The position numbers and the translations under genes are program-made. Of a stretch of 64,000 nt of DNA, positions 3,356 to 13,424 are shown in pieces; position 1 is the first letter of the stretch, and each line of letters opens with the position of its first letter. Below the pieces are notes generated by a model. It was not told the origin of the DNA. It saw only the letters and a program-made list of their open reading frames with translations, and did not search any database. Location: positions 1-64,000 of IMG/VR virus record IMGVR_UViG_3300044833_000060; one strand, 5' to 3'. The stretch comes from a virus.

Positions 3356-3729
3356 AGTTCCTCAATCTCTATCCCGTAAACCGACTTCATCAGCTTGCGT
3401 TTCAGGATGTACGTCTTCGTCTTGGCGCCCTTCGCGTCCACTACATGCAACTTCCCGCCTACCTGCGCGTCTAAATAAGTGAAATCGGCGACATAGGCCA
3501 GTTGATTCTCGTTCCTGAGTGTCCCTTTCTGCGCTGGCACCAAAACAAATCTCACTTGCTTCTGTAGGTCGAAAATCTTTCCCCGCGATGCCAGGATGTC
3601 TAACCCTGCTCCTACATTCGCCTCGCGCTTGGACGCGTACCCGTTGGTCGGCTCGTTCTTGTATTTCCGGCCGTAGAGAGCGCGATTTACTTCGGCCACC
3701 GTAGCCTTACTCATACCGAAGTCAGTCAT
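3352..3729 (-). CDS. DUF1064 family, PD-(D/E)XK-like nuclease candidate
   Basis: 125 residues. The central part 'LAYVADFTYLDAQ' and then 'HVVDAKGAKTKTYILKRKL' match the DUF1064 layout: an Asp, a beta strand, then Asp-x-Lys-Gly. DUF1064 is a phage/prophage family with a restriction-endonuclease-like fold. The two Asp and the Lys are candidate metal and catalytic residues. The start at 3729 overlaps the stop of the upstream gene (ATGA). A junction-resolvase or end-processing job would fit the ERF/YqaJ recombination genes further upstream. Confidence 0.75.
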   Translation of the reverse strand: MTDFGMSKATVAEVNRALYGRKYKNEPTNGYASKREANVGAGLDILASRGKIFDLQKQVRFVLVPAQKGTLRNENQLAYVADFTYLDAQVGGKLHVVDAKGAKTKTYILKRKLMKSVYGIEIEEL

Positions 3730-3872
3730 GCCGCTTTCCTCTGCCCACACTGGGCCACAAATTCTAAAATTAACTTCCACAATTCAGGACGCTCATTCCG
3801 AATTCGCCCTAATAACTGCAAAGCCTTCCAAGCTCTGAGCCTCATCGAAAATACGTCGTAGAGATCAGTCAT
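3726..3872 (-). CDS. small helical protein, 48 aa
   Basis: It starts 'MTDLYDVFSMRLRAWKALQ' and is rich in Leu, Arg and Trp, probably a helical hairpin. Both ends use ATGA overlaps, with the 120-residue gene before it and DUF1064 after it. That is strong evidence of a real, translationally coupled gene. Function unknown. Confidence 0.65.
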   Translation of the reverse strand: MTDLYDVFSMRLRAWKALQLLGRIRNERPELWKLILEFVAQCGQRKAA

Positions 3873-4231
3873 CGACTCATTCCGCGAAAAAGTTTCGAGC
3901 GCCAGACCCGATGCAAATTTCCCTTTTTCCCCGCTAACTTCGAGCGCTTCACATTCTCAGTAGCTTCCATGTAGCCCAAAGTCTTTGCGACTTCCTTCAT
4001 GCGAGGCCCGAGGGCCGCCAAATTATGCGTAGCAACCTCTGACGAAACTTTCGCAAGCTCGGTGAGCACTTCATCGACCGTGAAATATTCAAGTCGTCGG
4101 GCCACGGCCAAAATGCAGCCATCGATATATCTGCGCCAAACCGGATCGGCATGCGCATCAGCAGCTTCCATTCCGATCTGAGCTTCGGGCGGAAGCTTCT
4201 GCTCAAAGTCGATTTGAAACTGGAGAGTCAT
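3869..4231 (-). CDS. predicted winged-helix protein, 120 aa
   Basis: Residues about 30-105 form a helical segment, then 'FTVDEVLTELAK' and 'HNLAALGPRMKEVAKTLGY', then a basic wing with 'KRSKLAGKKGNLHRVWRS'. This layout (short winged helix, then R/K-rich strand pair ending in V-W-x-S) is common in small phage proteins near replication genes. DNA binding is inferred. Start chosen by the ATGA overlap with the gene at 4228. Confidence 0.65.
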   Translation of the reverse strand: MTLQFQIDFEQKLPPEAQIGMEAADAHADPVWRRYIDGCILAVARRLEYFTVDEVLTELAKVSSEVATHNLAALGPRMKEVAKTLGYMEATENVKRSKLAGKKGNLHRVWRSKLFRGMSR

Positions 4232-8631: not shown

Positions 8632-9312
8632 CTAGGACCGTATTTGTTGCGCCAGGGAAGCTCCAGCCAATTGCTCCAACGGGATAAAAATACTTCCCCG
8701 CAAACTGCGCACAATCTCATCTACTTCTGCGAGAAAGAACCCGATCTGCTGTTCCATTTTGGCGATCTGATCCTCGTTCCGATGGAATCGGCGGACGAAC
8801 AATTGACACTCTTTCGGTAGGCGCGGATCGAAGCTCACAAAGTCGCACCACTGACGCCCGGTACATGCCATTTGCGCGAGCATTTGCGGCTTGTATTCGA
8901 GCGGAACTTCGCCTTCCAAGACGTAACTGATGTGAGTTGCCGTGGCGGGACACTTGACCTCCAGTAGCCCATCCTTGCCGATAAGCCCGTCTGGCGAAGC
9001 GCCGAATCGTTCAACTTTGTCGTGGATGACAAATCCGACCGCATCCACGGTTGTGTCGCAGATCAGTTCATAAGCTGCGCGGGCAAACTGTTCCGTCTCT
9101 GCCCGCCATTCCATCTCGCGGCCCAGGTATCTTGCGTCGGCAGGTCGGCCTGTCATGGTTTCCGCAACCAACTCTGCCCGATAGTTACGTCGTGGAGCGG
9201 CTTCGCCTTTCTTGATCTCCGCCGTGGCGTCTCCCACCCGAGAAGCTGTGACCTTCCCGCATCGTGCCTCGTACCACTCAGGGGTTCGTTGTTCGCAGTT
9301 AATGATGGTCAT
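8632..9312 (-). CDS. YqaJ-like viral recombinase (lambda-type exonuclease)
   Basis: 226 residues. 'QRTPEWYEARCGKVTASR' near the N-terminus and 'GASPDGLIGKDGLLEVKCP' in the middle are hallmarks of the YqaJ/lambda-exonuclease family. The second gives the metal-binding Asp and the Glu-x-Lys of the PD-(D/E)XK core. It would resect double-strand DNA ends 5'-3' to leave 3' tails. The ERF annealing protein lies immediately upstream with a TGATG overlap. The pair forms a complete two-protein recombination system. Confidence 0.93.
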   Translation of the reverse strand: MTIINCEQRTPEWYEARCGKVTASRVGDATAEIKKGEAAPRRNYRAELVAETMTGRPADARYLGREMEWRAETEQFARAAYELICDTTVDAVGFVIHDKVERFGASPDGLIGKDGLLEVKCPATATHISYVLEGEVPLEYKPQMLAQMACTGRQWCDFVSFDPRLPKECQLFVRRFHRNEDQIAKMEQQIGFFLAEVDEIVRSLRGSIFIPLEQLAGASLAQQIRS

Positions 9313-10052
9313 CAGAGTTCCCGCTTTCTGCGGTCCTTCGCTTTAATTAGGCACTCTTGAGCGTTTCGGTCGTTGGCTTTACTAGCTTCCGCATAAGCCG
9401 CCTTGAAAAGCTTGTCGAGTTCAATGGGGGTGCTGGCACTGGCAAGCCATTCGCAGCGTTCTTGCAACCAGTCCGACGCCACAGATACCGTCTGAGCGTT
9501 GTTTCCGTTCTTGTTCACGTGTGGCGCTCGTCCGTCCGTATCCGTGTTTGCGGCCGCTAACCCAGTAGCAGCTAGCAGGGTGTACCGCTCAAGGTAGGTC
9601 ACCGTAGAACTGATAGCTTGAATCGCATTCTTACTACCTGAGTTATCAGGCGGACCGATGAGGGATGTTTCTTCGCAATGGCCTAGATCGTGCATCAGGA
9701 TGCAGGTAATCTTCACCCAGCCATCGCCTTGCTCGGGCCTCCAGCGATGCGAAATGCCGTGCTGACTTAATCCCTCAATTACCGCACGGCATACCGCGTC
9801 GAGCGTGGCATGGTCGTATTCCGTCTGCCCAAACTTGACGTGCTTATTCTTGATAATTTCCGGCGGGTTTTGTTTGAACGCGTTCATGGCTGCTACAAAG
9901 GCTTTACGTGCCTCATTCGCTTCCCATTCCCGCTGAAGCGCCATTAGCTTCTCCAGTTTGTCGATGTCGAAATTCTGCGACACCGCCATTCGGAGCAGAT
10001 CCATTGGCGTTAATGCTTGTGACGGTTGTACTGCGAGTGCTTCTGTGTCCAC
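9312..10052 (-). CDS. erf: ERF-family single-strand annealing protein
   Basis: 246 residues. Family signature 'YDHATLDAVCRAVIEGLSQ' and 'GSKNAIQAISSTVTYLERY' followed by 'TLLAATGLA' match the ERF core (about residues 75-165). ERF proteins anneal complementary single strands and are partners of phage exonucleases. In P22 the protein helps circularise the genome. The C-terminal 60 residues are charged and helical. The start is GTG with AGGAGG 8 bases upstream. Confidence 0.92.
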   Translation of the reverse strand: MDTEALAVQPSQALTPMDLLRMAVSQNFDIDKLEKLMALQREWEANEARKAFVAAMNAFKQNPPEIIKNKHVKFGQTEYDHATLDAVCRAVIEGLSQHGISHRWRPEQGDGWVKITCILMHDLGHCEETSLIGPPDNSGSKNAIQAISSTVTYLERYTLLAATGLAAANTDTDGRAPHVNKNGNNAQTVSVASDWLQERCEWLASASTPIELDKLFKAAYAEASKANDRNAQECLIKAKDRRKREL

Positions 10053-10277: not shown

Positions 10278-10568
10278 CTACCGACATGAGATAACCTTCG
10301 CCAGTGCCAGAGCTTGCACGAGAACGTGAGGCTTTACTCGTTGCAAACTTTTGTATCCGCGTTCTGTGATCTGAATAGATCGTGAACAGTTATAGTCGTG
10401 GCCCAGCACACCTTTTCTGCGGAGATTCGTCACATGCTTGTGCACCGTTGAAACAGAGTTCAAGCCGACTCCCACTGCAATTTCCGTGAAGCTGGGTGCA
10501 TAGCCATCTTCCTCAATCCGGTGCGCGATCCACGCGAGAACTCCGAATTGACGCTTCGTTAAAGTCAT
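10278..10568 (-). CDS. LexA-type winged-helix DNA-binding protein, no protease domain
   Basis: 96 residues. 'LTKRQFGVLAWIAHRIEED' then 'YAPSFTEIAVGVGLNSVSTV' then 'HVTNLRRKGVLGHD' is the LexA N-terminal DNA-binding domain in full (about residues 3-65). The Ser/Lys autoprotease domain of LexA is absent. It may bind LexA-like operators in the host or phage genome without being cleavable. ATGA overlap with the 31-residue gene upstream. Confidence 0.85.
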   Translation of the reverse strand: MTLTKRQFGVLAWIAHRIEEDGYAPSFTEIAVGVGLNSVSTVHKHVTNLRRKGVLGHDYNCSRSIQITERGYKSLQRVKPHVLVQALALAKVISCR

Positions 10569-10660
10569 TTCAAAATCTCCACCAAGGAAATAACTGCTAA
10601 AGCGGCGACAACTAAAACTGCTGACTCTCCGACGTAGTAGCGAAACCACCAGGAATTCAT
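10565..10660 (-). CDS. tiny membrane protein, 31 aa
   Basis: It starts 'MNSWWFRYYVGESAVLVVAA' and is a single hydrophobic span ending in Glu-Ile-Leu-Lys. It is coupled by ATGA at both ends, to the 65-residue membrane gene and to the LexA-like gene. That is good evidence it is expressed. Function unknown. Confidence 0.65.
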   Translation of the reverse strand: MNSWWFRYYVGESAVLVVAALAVISLVEILK

Positions 10661-10854: not shown

Positions 10855-11099
10855 ATATCCCCTCCATTCATGATCGAGAATCCTTTCGATAATCGGCAGC
10901 CAATCGTGTATCTCGCTTGCTCAAACGCATCTCGCTGCGGATTCTGAGGTGAACTGCGCCGAGGGCCAGACGGCGTGACGAGATTGCAATGCGTTCCACA
11001 GTTACGCGACTTACAGAACGGGCAGCGCATCTCAATTAACAGAGCGCCATCACGCTGCTCGTCTGTAAATGTGTGGTGGCAATCTCGGCAGTAGTTCAT
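10851..11099 (-). CDS. zinc-ribbon protein, 82 aa
   Basis: 'CRDCHHTF' then 'MRCPFCKSRNCGTHC' supply two Cys pairs and extra Cys/His for zinc binding. The tail is basic. Start at 11099 is set by the ATGA overlap with the gene at 11096. Likely nucleic-acid or protein binding. Confidence 0.65.
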   Translation of the reverse strand: MNYCRDCHHTFTDEQRDGALLIEMRCPFCKSRNCGTHCNLVTPSGPRRSSPQNPQRDAFEQARYTIGCRLSKGFSIMNGGDI

Positions 11100-11368
11100 G
11101 CGAGTAAGTGTCCCTTCTGGTGGCTGACCAAGCAAAACGGGCAGTACGTATCCACGCAGCAGACCTTGGCGCAGGGCTTGCACAATTCCATACTGCAATC
11201 TCCGCAGAACGTAATCGCCTTGCGTGCCGAGAATTCCGTTTCACAATTCGCGCAATAAGTTCCCCAGGCGATGTTGGCTTTCATGGCCGCGCGGCGTTCC
11301 ATGCGCTCCACAATTTCTAAAGCTGTTTCTGAGCGGTAGGAATCGAGGTGAAAGGTTTGAGTAGTCAT
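11096..11368 (-). CDS. B-box-like zinc-finger protein, 90 aa
   Basis: Residues about 38-90 carry nine Cys plus His in pairs: 'YCANCETEF', 'TFCGDCSMELCKPCAKVCC', 'CPFCLVSHQKGH'. The cross-brace spacing resembles B-box or RING-like fingers. The N-terminus is helical. It overlaps the Cys-Ser repeat gene upstream and another zinc protein downstream. Confidence 0.65.
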   Translation of the reverse strand: MTTQTFHLDSYRSETALEIVERMERRAAMKANIAWGTYCANCETEFSARKAITFCGDCSMELCKPCAKVCCVDTYCPFCLVSHQKGHLLA

Positions 11369-12048
11369 TCCGCCTCCGCCAACTTCTTCATATCTTCCAG
11401 TGCGGCTTCGTTGTCATCAAAGAATCGGCATGGATTGATCTTGAAGTTCGGGTCGCTGGCGTCGTAAATCTTCATTGCGGCCAGCAAGGTATCGAATCGG
11501 GCTTCGAGTTTCTTCCCCTCTACTCCCGCCAAAGTTACGACCCATCCCGCACGGCAGTGCTTCTTCTCGCAGGTGTGCCATGTTTCCATTCGTAACGCCT
11601 CAGGCTGCGATGCGGCAGCGTAGACGGCTTTGTGGATGTCAGGGATTATCGGGACCGTAATCGGCTTGGCAATCCCAGCCACAGGTGCGGCATTTTCTAA
11701 ATCGGAGCAACGGGAGCAACGGGAGCAACGGGAGCAACGGGAGCAACCGTAGCAATCGGAGCAACCGGAGCAACCGGAGCAATCGGAGCAATCGGAGCAA
11801 TCGGAGCAACCGGAGCAACCGGAGCAATCGGAGCAATCGGAGCAACGGGAGCAACGGGAGCAACCGGAGCAACGGGAGCAACCGGAGCAATCGGAGCAAT
11901 CGGAGCAACCGGAGCAATCGGAGCAATCGGAGCAATCGGAGCAACCGGAGCAACGGGAGCAACTATCAAGAGCCTTTTTTGCCGCCTCTTCCGAACCCCA
12001 GCGCTCAACTGAACAGCGATTACCGCGATCGTCTTTTATCCAAGTCAT
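11365..12048 (-). CDS. Cys-Ser-x repeat protein, 227 aa
   Basis: Residues about 29-115 are 29 nearly perfect tripeptides Cys-Ser-(Asp/Gly/Arg), with one Cys-Tyr-Gly. They are encoded by 9-bp units TGC-TCC-(GAT/GGT/CGT). The N-terminal 28 residues ('[19 protein letters not shown]') and the C-terminal 110 residues are ordinary globular sequence; the C-terminal part includes '[16 protein letters not shown]'. A Cys every third residue could give a left-handed polyproline-II-like helix or solenoid with a thiol ladder binding metals. Function unknown. Confidence 0.8.
11702..11962. repeat. 9-bp tandem repeat array inside a gene
   Basis: About 29 copies of a 9-base unit (plus strand: gagcaaccg, gagcaatcg or gagcaacgg). 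Nearly all variation lies in two bases, corresponding to the third codon of the Cys-Ser-x unit. No spacers, so it is not a CRISPR array. The copy number is likely to change by slippage. Confidence 0.95.
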
Positions 12049-13424
12049 GCGATTTCCTCTTTCTTAACTTGCGGGGTGGATTGGCTCGGCTTCTTGGGGG
12101 AGTCGGGAGAGGGAATTAAGACAGGATTGTGCGAGGCTTCCACTCGCGTCCTCGGCGCGCCCGAGTTTGTCAGATCATCCACCCGCCTCTGAGCTGTGCG
12201 CGTTGGGCTGACCCGGTTACCATTCGTTTCTTCCCGTCGATCTTCTGACCGAGTTGCGTGCCCAAATCCGCCGAATGGCCTAAGCGACGGACCAATCGTG
12301 TCCGCCGCAGTGGGTATGTCAATCTTCTTCGTCAGTCCATTTAGTTCCGCAATTGATGCAGTCGTGCTGTCCTTCATGATTTTGGCGCTTCTGACACTGC
12401 GCACCGCACGCGGGACAGTGACTTTCTCCGCAGAGCATCCTTCCGTCGTCCATACTTCCTCCTTTACTCGGCGTGAAGCGCCTGAATTACCGCTGAGTTG
12501 ATTGTGTTCAGATCGGCCTCCGTCGCTTTGCGCAACGTCACCCACTGGCCGTCTGGGTGTTTGTATAGAATCCATCCCGCTAGGTAATGGCCCGAGTACA
12601 CGAGCTTCATTCGGCGCTTCGACTTGTTGTCGTAGAAGTTCAGCCCCGCCGGATCGCTGTTCATCACTTCCAGTTCCGACGATGCTTTCATGCGCTTCTC
12701 CTGCGCTCGTCGTCGAAGCGTTCCCACTTCGCGTCGTTGGCTCCAGCCTTGTAGCCTTCGTCGTAGTCGAAGTCGGCGAAAGGCTTGATGTATTCAGGCT
12801 TGACTTCACAGAACGGCGCGCGCCCTGCGTTGCCATCGCGATATCCACGGCGATAGGCAACTGAGACACGTTCGAGTGTTTGGTTGCTGAGCATACTGCC
12901 TCCATTTCTGACGGTCTTAAATTGTCTCTTTCGTCATAGAAGCGCGAAGGAATTGGTTCAGGTGGACGAAGCTCACCATTGGGAAAGCAGAAGTTATTGA
13001 ACAGCGTGCCGAATTTCAGCTTTTGGGTGTGAATGAGTTCGGCTTGCGCCTGAGCCGCCGTGATTTCCTTTTTCGTCTTAAGGAGCGGCGCGATGGCTGG
13101 CTTGCACTTTTGGCAGCGCCGCCGCGTGGCAGTGATGGGCAGTTCTTGGCAGCGGCTATCAAACTGGCTGAAGGTTATGGAATCATGGCCGCACTCCAGT
13201 TTTTCTTTCCAGATGCCTTTTTCAACCTGGGCACGCTCGACAACCAACCGCAACGGGGACTTTCCCAAGAGCCGCTCCATTAACTCGGAATGAAGCGATA
13301 GGGGGAAGCTCGGGGATTGTACTAGACCGAACGGAGCGACCGGCGCGGCTTTACATAACACTTCTAATCGCTTGTTATCGGAAGCTGAGTCGGGTTTGGC
13401 GCGTAGATTCATGGAGTTATGCAC
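12045..13424 (-). CDS. uncertain long frame; N-terminal zinc-binding part likely real
   Basis: A frame of 459 codons opens at a GTG and ends in an ATGA overlap with the Cys-Ser repeat gene. Residues 1-177 (12894-13424) have no competing gene and include 'KLECGHDSITF' and 'RRRCQKCKPA', a likely zinc site, so this part is credible. From 12894 down to 12319 three good small genes with their own ribosome sites lie in other frames. There the long frame is Ser/Thr/Arg-rich and looks like a shadow. The last ~45-110 codons may be a separate gene. Confidence 0.45.
   Translation of the reverse strand: MHNSMNLRAKPDSASDNKRLEVLCKAAPVAPFGLVQSPSFPLSLHSELMERLLGKSPLRLVVERAQVEKGIWKEKLECGHDSITFSQFDSRCQELPITATRRRCQKCKPAIAPLLKTKKEITAAQAQAELIHTQKLKFGTLFNNFCFPNGELRPPEPIPSRFYDERDNLRPSEMEAVCSATKHSNVSQLPIAVDIAMATQGARRSVKSSLNTSSLSPTSTTTKATRLEPTTRSGNASTTSAGEAHESIVGTGSDEQRSGGAELLRQQVEAPNEARVLGPLPSGMDSIQTPRRPVGDVAQSDGGRSEHNQLSGNSGASRRVKEEVWTTEGCSAEKVTVPRAVRSVRSAKIMKDSTTASIAELNGLTKKIDIPTAADTIGPSLRPFGGFGHATRSEDRREETNGNRVSPTRTAQRRVDDLTNSGAPRTRVEASHNPVLIPSPDSPKKPSQSTPQVKKEEIA
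12319..12453 (-). CDS. zinc-ribbon microprotein, 44 aa
   Basis: It starts 'MDDGRMLCGESHCPACGAQC' and continues to 'CINCGTKWTDEED'. Two CxxC knuckles form a rubredoxin-type zinc ribbon. AAAGGAGG sits 4 bases before ATG, the best ribosome site in the area. It overlaps the long frame at 12045-13424. Confidence 0.7.
   Translation of the reverse strand: MDDGRMLCGESHCPACGAQCQKRQNHEGQHDCINCGTKWTDEED
12464..12691 (-). CDS. conserved small phage protein, 75 aa
   Basis: It starts 'MKASSELEVMNSDPAG' and contains 'GHYLAGWILYKHPDGQWVT' and 'LRKATEADLNTINSAV'. The 'YKHPDGQWV-x-LR-x-A' core looks like a small beta-sheet protein seen in other phages. ATGA overlap with the gene at 12688. Function unknown. 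Confidence 0.7.
   Translation of the reverse strand: MKASSELEVMNSDPAGLNFYDNKSKRRMKLVYSGHYLAGWILYKHPDGQWVTLRKATEADLNTINSAVIQALHAE
12688..12894 (-). CDS. conserved small phage protein, 68 aa
   Basis: Two Gly-Tyr motifs: 'AYRRGYRDGNAGR' and 'DFDYDEGYKAGANDAKWE'. This R-G-Y-x-D-G ... E-G-Y-x-A-G layout is typical of a short phage family of unknown function. GGAGGC lies 3 bases before the ATG. Confidence 0.7.
   Translation of the reverse strand: MLSNQTLERVSVAYRRGYRDGNAGRAPFCEVKPEYIKPFADFDYDEGYKAGANDAKWERFDDERRRSA

Follow-up and report, generated by a model that had tools for sequence, protein, structure and literature searches.

A family of phage proteins with Cys-Ser-x arrays that probably form a narrow beta-solenoid

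Background

The beetle antifreeze protein is a beta-helix with 12-residue turns, in which the residues at positions 2, 5, 8 and 11 point inward (PMC8038014). Pentapeptide-repeat proteins follow the consensus [STAV][DN][LF][STR][G], where the core positions accept several residues, and MfpA and Qnr act by DNA mimicry (PMC8145042). The PHROGs families phrog_31265 and phrog_15341, to which the protein described here is related, have no assigned function or fold. Here we describe a phage protein built around a tandem array of Cys-Ser-x (CSx) tripeptides. If such a chain were laid on the 12-residue antifreeze turn, all its Cys would lie inside.

The CSx gene

The window, i.e. the stretch of 64 kb that was analysed, covers most of a virus record of 64,917 bases, in which the CSx gene is present in one copy. 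The gene and its parts are as follows.

11365..12048, minus strand: CSx gene, whole open reading frame, 227 aa with ATG start; N-terminal cap, CSx array, linker and C-terminal domain
12055..12061, minus strand: Shine-Dalgarno-like AAGAGGA, read from the sequence, 6 nt 5' of the ATG of the CSx gene
11962..12048, minus strand: N-terminal cap, residues 1-29, conserved among relatives; predicted beta hairpin and helix
11701..11961, minus strand: CSx array, residues 30-116, 29 units of 9 nt
11653..11700, minus strand: variable linker, residues 117-132, differing in length and sequence among relatives
11368..11652, minus strand: C-terminal helical domain with the invariant motif H-x-C-x3-H-C-R-[AG]-G-W at residues 158-169

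In brief, the cap has the consensus WIxDxxGNxxSVExxGSxEAAxxALDS, the tail after the array is 111 residues long, and the C-terminal domain has the signature WHTCxTTHCRAGW across the family. The array contains four types of 9-nt unit only, TGCTCCGAT (12 copies), TGCTCCCGT (8), TGCTCCGGT (8) and TGCTACGGT (1). The sequence-only reading had counted 29 Cys-Ser-x tripeptides with variation confined to the third residue. There are 29 in-phase triplets led by Cys, and x is limited to Asp, Gly and Arg, but one triplet is CYG, which leaves 28 CSx units and one that differs at the second residue. In Tandem Repeats Finder the CSx array reaches a score of 382 (period 9, 29.0 copies, 92% matches); the program finds two arrays in the 64-kb window, and the CSx array is by far the stronger.

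Reading frame

All six frames are long across the array (CSx, VAP/IAP and LLR; antisense GAT, EQR and SNR), so the coding frame needed proof. Other C-S-x arrays, which the sequence-only reading had suggested looking for in phages, exist at no fewer than 148 viral loci: a search of viral contigs found at least that many, and the cap, the array pattern and the C-terminal domain recur in their translations. Among the family arrays, Ser is encoded by TCG, TCC, TCT, TCA, AGC or AGT, Cys by TGC or TGT, and the x codon ends in C or T, depending on the phage. These loci keep the flanking parts as well as the CSx pattern despite different synonymous codons, which establishes CSx as the coding frame. 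The antisense Gly-Ala-Thr reading, which is collagen-like, arises solely where Ser is TCC, and the antisense GAx frame is interrupted by stops in arrays with TCA. The cap and the C-terminal domain are joined in the CSx frame only. An earlier worry that the frame might be untranslated is met by these codon changes, which the CSx reading alone survives across relatives. Judged from the sequence comparisons, the array is real and the CSx frame is translated.

It had also been feared that the array is an assembly artefact. The family occurs in isolate genomes too, including that of the isolated Flavobacterium phage FL-1, which answers the worry for the family, but the exact copy number in the present contig depends on the assembly. 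Numerous viral contigs stop within the array gene, indicating that the repeat breaks short-read assemblies and that copy numbers are uncertain. A contig edge cuts 17 of 72 CSx loci among the viral contigs with the C-terminal domain (L396-L475), and in four records (G045, G046, G049 and G050) the cap and the tail are found at opposite contig ends.

The closest deposited phage is FL-1 (KY421186.2; L001:3548-4364), and no other was found. Its deposited annotation calls the Val-Ala-Pro frame as a gene (locus 3660-4004). When the array is read in the family frame, CSx, the C-terminal domain falls into two parts at a frame break of the deposited sequence.

Extent of the family

By its sequence, the window protein belongs to a large phage family without previous description. 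Its C-terminal domain is present in more than 400 viral loci. In PHROGs v4, phrog_31265 matches this domain (9.8e-31) and phrog_15341 matches the cap and array (8.9e-20). The features that mark members of the family, the N-terminal cap, the CSx array and the WHTCxTTHCRAGW domain, are all present in the window protein. Arrays range from 3 to 59 whole units across the family, and those as short as 3-6 units occur in apparently intact genes.

PHROGs thus contains both families without a function, and neither is recognised by Pfam, NCBIfam or PADLOC. Pfam gave no match in the window protein or in 66 aligned members, NCBIfam no usable match in the same 66 members, and PADLOC no usable match for the family; metallothionein and metal-storage families in Pfam and NCBIfam did not match either. 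Among the open-licence papers searched, none on CSx arrays was found.

Some members are built differently. Three separate open reading frames in L077 and L078 share a common cap and carry different CSx arrays, all without the C-terminal domain. Tandem full-length paralogues in L022 (4107-4955 and 4989-5900) have CRG, CSL and CRD units besides CSD. In L182, L117 and L478, CSx arrays are placed on a third, short C-terminal segment, [GN]LKYAIxxVxLxxxxYExKMKEI, and the N-terminus is different.

Evolution of the array

In 111 arrays of relatives, Cys is kept at 3497 of 3508 in-phase positions (99.7%, 11 non-Cys), a rate that is somewhat inflated because the array search favours Cys-containing sequences, so that the count of losses is a lower bound. 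Ser is kept at about 81-85% of the in-phase positions. Within the same 111 arrays, synonymous sites have a mean heterozygosity of approximately 0.02 and codon positions 1 and 2 of x one of 0.45, and x exceeds the synonymous sites in 110 of them. The low synonymous value indicates that the repeat copies are homogenised within each phage. Drift alone would flatten x in the same way, so what keeps the mixture must be either selection or biased mutation at x.

Overall, x is Asp in 37%, Gly in 29% and Arg in 20% of the units, with Asn, Tyr and His rarer, and Asp, Gly and Arg all occur in 133 of 170 arrays. The share of Asp is unrelated to GC content, and those of Gly and Arg are weakly related. Family arrays have a net charge of about -0.17 per unit and contain many Arg.

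Arrays change quickly in length. L030 and L041 have identical C-terminal DNA (255 nt) and carry 28 and 25 units, with one D/G/R change; a comparison of copy numbers, as proposed earlier, thus reveals a difference of three units between near relatives within the family range given above. The two tandem paralogues in L022/L326 are 97.6% alike in their C-terminal DNA and have quite different arrays. Duplication of a segment is recognisable in 26 of the 111 arrays.

Codon-diverse arrays that keep Cys and mostly Ser, together with synonymous uniformity and diverse x, point to selection at the protein level, fast turnover of whole units and maintained diversity of x. The sequence-only reading had proposed that selection fixes Cys and Ser, and the family arrays bear this out, with the third residue kept diverse. 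It had further proposed a charged/neutral pattern along one face, of which the pooled arrays show no sign: between lags 1 and 20, none stands out when x identity, x charge or Ser replacement is tested for autocorrelation, and the order of x looks random.

Genomic neighbourhood

The following neighbours of the CSx gene are relevant.

8632..9312, minus strand: YqaJ exonuclease of the recombination region (Pfam PF09588, 3.6e-25)
9312..10052, minus strand: ERF single-strand annealing protein (Pfam PF04404, 3.6e-16)
11096..11368, minus strand: 90-aa Cys-rich protein directly downstream of the CSx gene, with a weak B-box match below the cut-off

The CSx gene often lies within the phage recombination region. 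In the window it is found approximately 1.3 kb from ERF and 2 kb from YqaJ. Among 50 records of relatives, 14 encode YqaJ and 9 encode ERF, and 13 of the 14 have YqaJ at most about 6 kb from the array gene (one record was treated as circular). YqaJ is the commonest recognisable neighbour (15 of 81 loci), and ERF and a helicase-like protein are also among the most frequent. We found no obligate partner gene among the neighbours of the 81 loci, no shared modifying enzyme in their flanks, and no conserved partner that would deliver metal or assemble clusters. The zinc-finger microproteins that had been noticed nearby are real in the window but are not conserved as neighbours in relatives.

Also encoded in the early region of the window is a small protein that has the DNA-binding domain of LexA but lacks the protease part (10278-10649, minus strand). 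Just upstream of the CSx gene is an open frame of 459 aa (12045-13424, minus strand), which overlaps smaller open reading frames at 12319-12453, 12464-12727 and 12688-12894. Much of this frame looks non-coding, although its end forms an ATGA overlap with the start of the CSx gene.

Domain swapping

The C-terminal domain of the window protein is also found on pentapeptide repeats, in bacterial genomes, on a Bordetella plasmid and in phages. In GTDB genomes it is preceded by such repeats in about 10 proteins (PF00805 confirmed), and on the Bordetella plasmid the pentapeptide protein is encoded approximately 1.8 kb from YqaJ genes. Among 80 viral loci with this domain, CSx arrays are present in 72 and pentapeptide repeats in 5 (and 1 partial), and a contig end truncates 2. 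Members of phrog_31265 itself, such as L216, have pentapeptide repeats in place of CSx.

A second, unrelated C-terminal domain, phrog_20532, follows the CSx arrays of L158 (2e-12) and L173 (1e-4), both of which carry the same kind of cap as the family of the window protein. In deposited phages, phrog_20532 follows either pentapeptide repeats (L480 and L482) or hexapeptide/YdcK beta-solenoid repeats (L479 and L481). Two unrelated C-terminal domains thus carry either CSx or a known beta-solenoid at the same place, which is our main reason for reading the array as a beta-solenoid. It should be noted that swapping demonstrates equal position, not equal fold. Pentapeptide repeats are present in 0 of the 50 CSx phage records, a count without a matched control that is suggestive at most.

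In one GTDB protein (L232:5542-6219), the THCRAGW domain stands after an Ala-rich stretch of triplet-like Ala-Ala-[W/R/D] repeats, which could be helical.

Fold of the array

Structure prediction, suggested earlier as a check, succeeded for the ends of the protein and largely failed for the array. AF2 gave pLDDT values of about 86-96 for the cap and mostly above 90 for the C-terminal domain, but 30-40 over most of the array, where no fold is predicted. The exception is the region of the first two predicted turns, with isolated bridges at residues 31/34/37 and 43/46/49 in two runs that have most of their input in common. The block-mean pLDDT is 57-87 at the bridges and below 50 past residue 52. 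The bridges read as Ser pairing with the Ser at i+12, the partners being assigned from their spacing at low to moderate confidence.

In a profile search against PDB sequences, the antifreeze protein 1ezg ranks first, with Cys aligned on Cys (E 2e-4 for the full profile, 0.011 for the cap-array profile), a match that low-complexity composition can produce. The models matched no solenoid in the PDB with Foldseek (best E 3.9) or with VIA-align (best Z 2.2), and the cap-array model had no match in the fold libraries. The sole good matches in a viral structure library were the FL-1 fragment and a protein of Campylobacter phage CP20, and these apparently concern the C-terminal domain.

A register of four units in array length was also considered. 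The first 121 arrays gave p=0.001, for modulo 4 only. The prediction, stated beforehand, was rejected on 57 new complete arrays (counts 15, 8, 14 and 20; p=0.16), and all 144 arrays gave p=0.56. In the pooled arrays, neither x nor the Ser replacements recur with a period of four units. After this failure, the 12-residue turn is argued from the AF2 bridges and the antifreeze analogy.

Proposed structure and alternatives

We suggest, with a probability of roughly 0.6, that the CSx protein is a cytosolic phage accessory protein composed of a cap, a rod and a head, in which the 29 units form a narrow beta-solenoid with probably four units per turn. The array is most likely a narrow beta-solenoid with Cys inside and Ser and x outside, and we hold this fold to be rather probable in its own right. 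Each Cys would face inward and pack the core, short strands bearing Ser would pair from one turn to the next, and the outward corners would be occupied by x (Asp, Gly and Arg, more rarely Asn, Tyr and His). One turn would probably be four units (12 residues) as in the beetle antifreeze protein, a tentative geometry that fits the AF2 bridges and that of the Tenebrio protein.

The rod takes the slot of the pentapeptide-repeat or hexapeptide beta-solenoids of related proteins and would present the conserved His/Cys C-terminal domain as its head, the His/Cys motif of which presumably does conserved work. Its length changes by whole units, and its outer residues, kept diverse as for a binding surface under changing selection, may form a contact surface. 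A binding rod facing the host or its defences would fit the early-region location and the diversity of x. DNA mimicry as in MfpA/Qnr looks unlikely, as about one fifth of x is Arg. The disulfide-rich solenoid of the sequence-only reading survives as a solenoid, which domain swapping favours; disulfide-rich was a guess and fits poorly with a cytosolic protein that has no signal.

A loaded ladder, in which every turn carries one metal ion or Fe-S cluster on its inward set of Cys, the fold depends on this load, and the protein serves metal storage, thiol buffering or electron conduction, is unlikely in our judgement. The conservation of Cys (11 non-Cys in 3508) seems to go beyond the need for a merely small buried residue, and the C-terminal domain has extra invariant His and Cys. 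The flanks, however, contain no conserved partner that would supply metal or build clusters, arrays of 3-6 units occur in apparently intact genes, and the Cys rate is somewhat inflated by the search. A broader version, a new class of beta-solenoid with a continuous thiol-column core that carries metal or clusters, outer corners diversified in an arms race with the host, and a swappable hypervariable rod, we regard as doubtful.

An unfolded array could instead act as a flexible tether between the cap and the C-terminal domain, kept in frame through 9-nt slippage. The free variation in length (3-59 units) and the low AF2 confidence in the array would suit such a spacer, but in a mere spacer Cys would not stay at 99.7% in differing codon contexts, nor would synonymous sites be uniform with x diverse, and relatives carry folded solenoids in the same slot; we consider it improbable.

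It is very improbable that the protein is a RiPP-like precursor with cross-linked or enzyme-modified Cys and Ser, as proposed for His-Xaa-Ser repeat proteins. NCBIfam HxsA4 matches 21 of the 66 members weakly (best 6.6e-5), a match of short-period composition; the flanks have no conserved modifying enzyme, and the conserved part is a folded C-terminal domain, not a leader. Hardly credible is a 9-nt minisatellite that matters as DNA or in another frame, with the CSx reading incidental: six long frames that are open or nearly open and the VAP frame called by the FL-1 annotators speak for it, but it is largely refuted already, since the CSx reading survives changes of the nucleotide unit from phage to phage, the antisense GAx frame runs into stops in TCA arrays, and the CSx frame alone connects cap and C-terminal domain.

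Comparison with known systems

Like the solenoid proposed for CSx, TmAFP (PDB 1ezg) is a Cys-rich narrow beta-helix with an inward residue at every third position. It differs in being a disulfide-bonded haemolymph protein, with a single disulfide in each turn and a 12-residue unit, TCTxSxNCxxAx. This repeat is absent from the CSx array, which has a three-residue unit and no excess at a lag of four units; the phage arrays have neither a 12-residue sequence period nor a Thr ladder for an ice face.

Dedicated maturation enzymes, as expected next to a RiPP precursor, do not adjoin the CSx genes, where the top neighbours are YqaJ, ERF and the helicase-like protein. In collagen-like proteins every third residue of the translated product is Gly, whereas Gly-Ala-Thr is found here in the antisense only. 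Annotators should be aware that array DNA reads as collagen-like or as VAP repeats in other frames.

Pentapeptide-repeat proteins (PF00805; MfpA, Qnr) occupy the same slot before the same C-terminal domain and likewise consist of tandem short repeats with a small cap, a rod and a C-terminal element. Their fold is a right-handed four-sided beta-helix; for the CSx array, AF2 models are of low confidence. The CSx protein differs in its three-residue rather than five-residue unit, its Cys core and a charge unlike that of a DNA mimic, and neither the window protein nor the 66 aligned members contain eight or more tandem A[DN]LXX repeats (PF00805). Phage proteins with hexapeptide/YdcK beta-solenoids (PF00132, PF18836) have the phrog_20532 domain in common with L158 and L173; their repeat is different, and the window protein has another C-terminal domain.

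If the proposed reading is right, an abundant unannotated gene is explained, and it offers protein designers a minimal solenoid unit as well as an example from nature of rapid change in length by whole units, in which diversity is confined to surface positions. CSx, with units of three residues and a core made almost entirely of Cys, would then join the pentapeptide and hexapeptide repeats as a third interchangeable beta-solenoid module of phages, one that is absent from Pfam.
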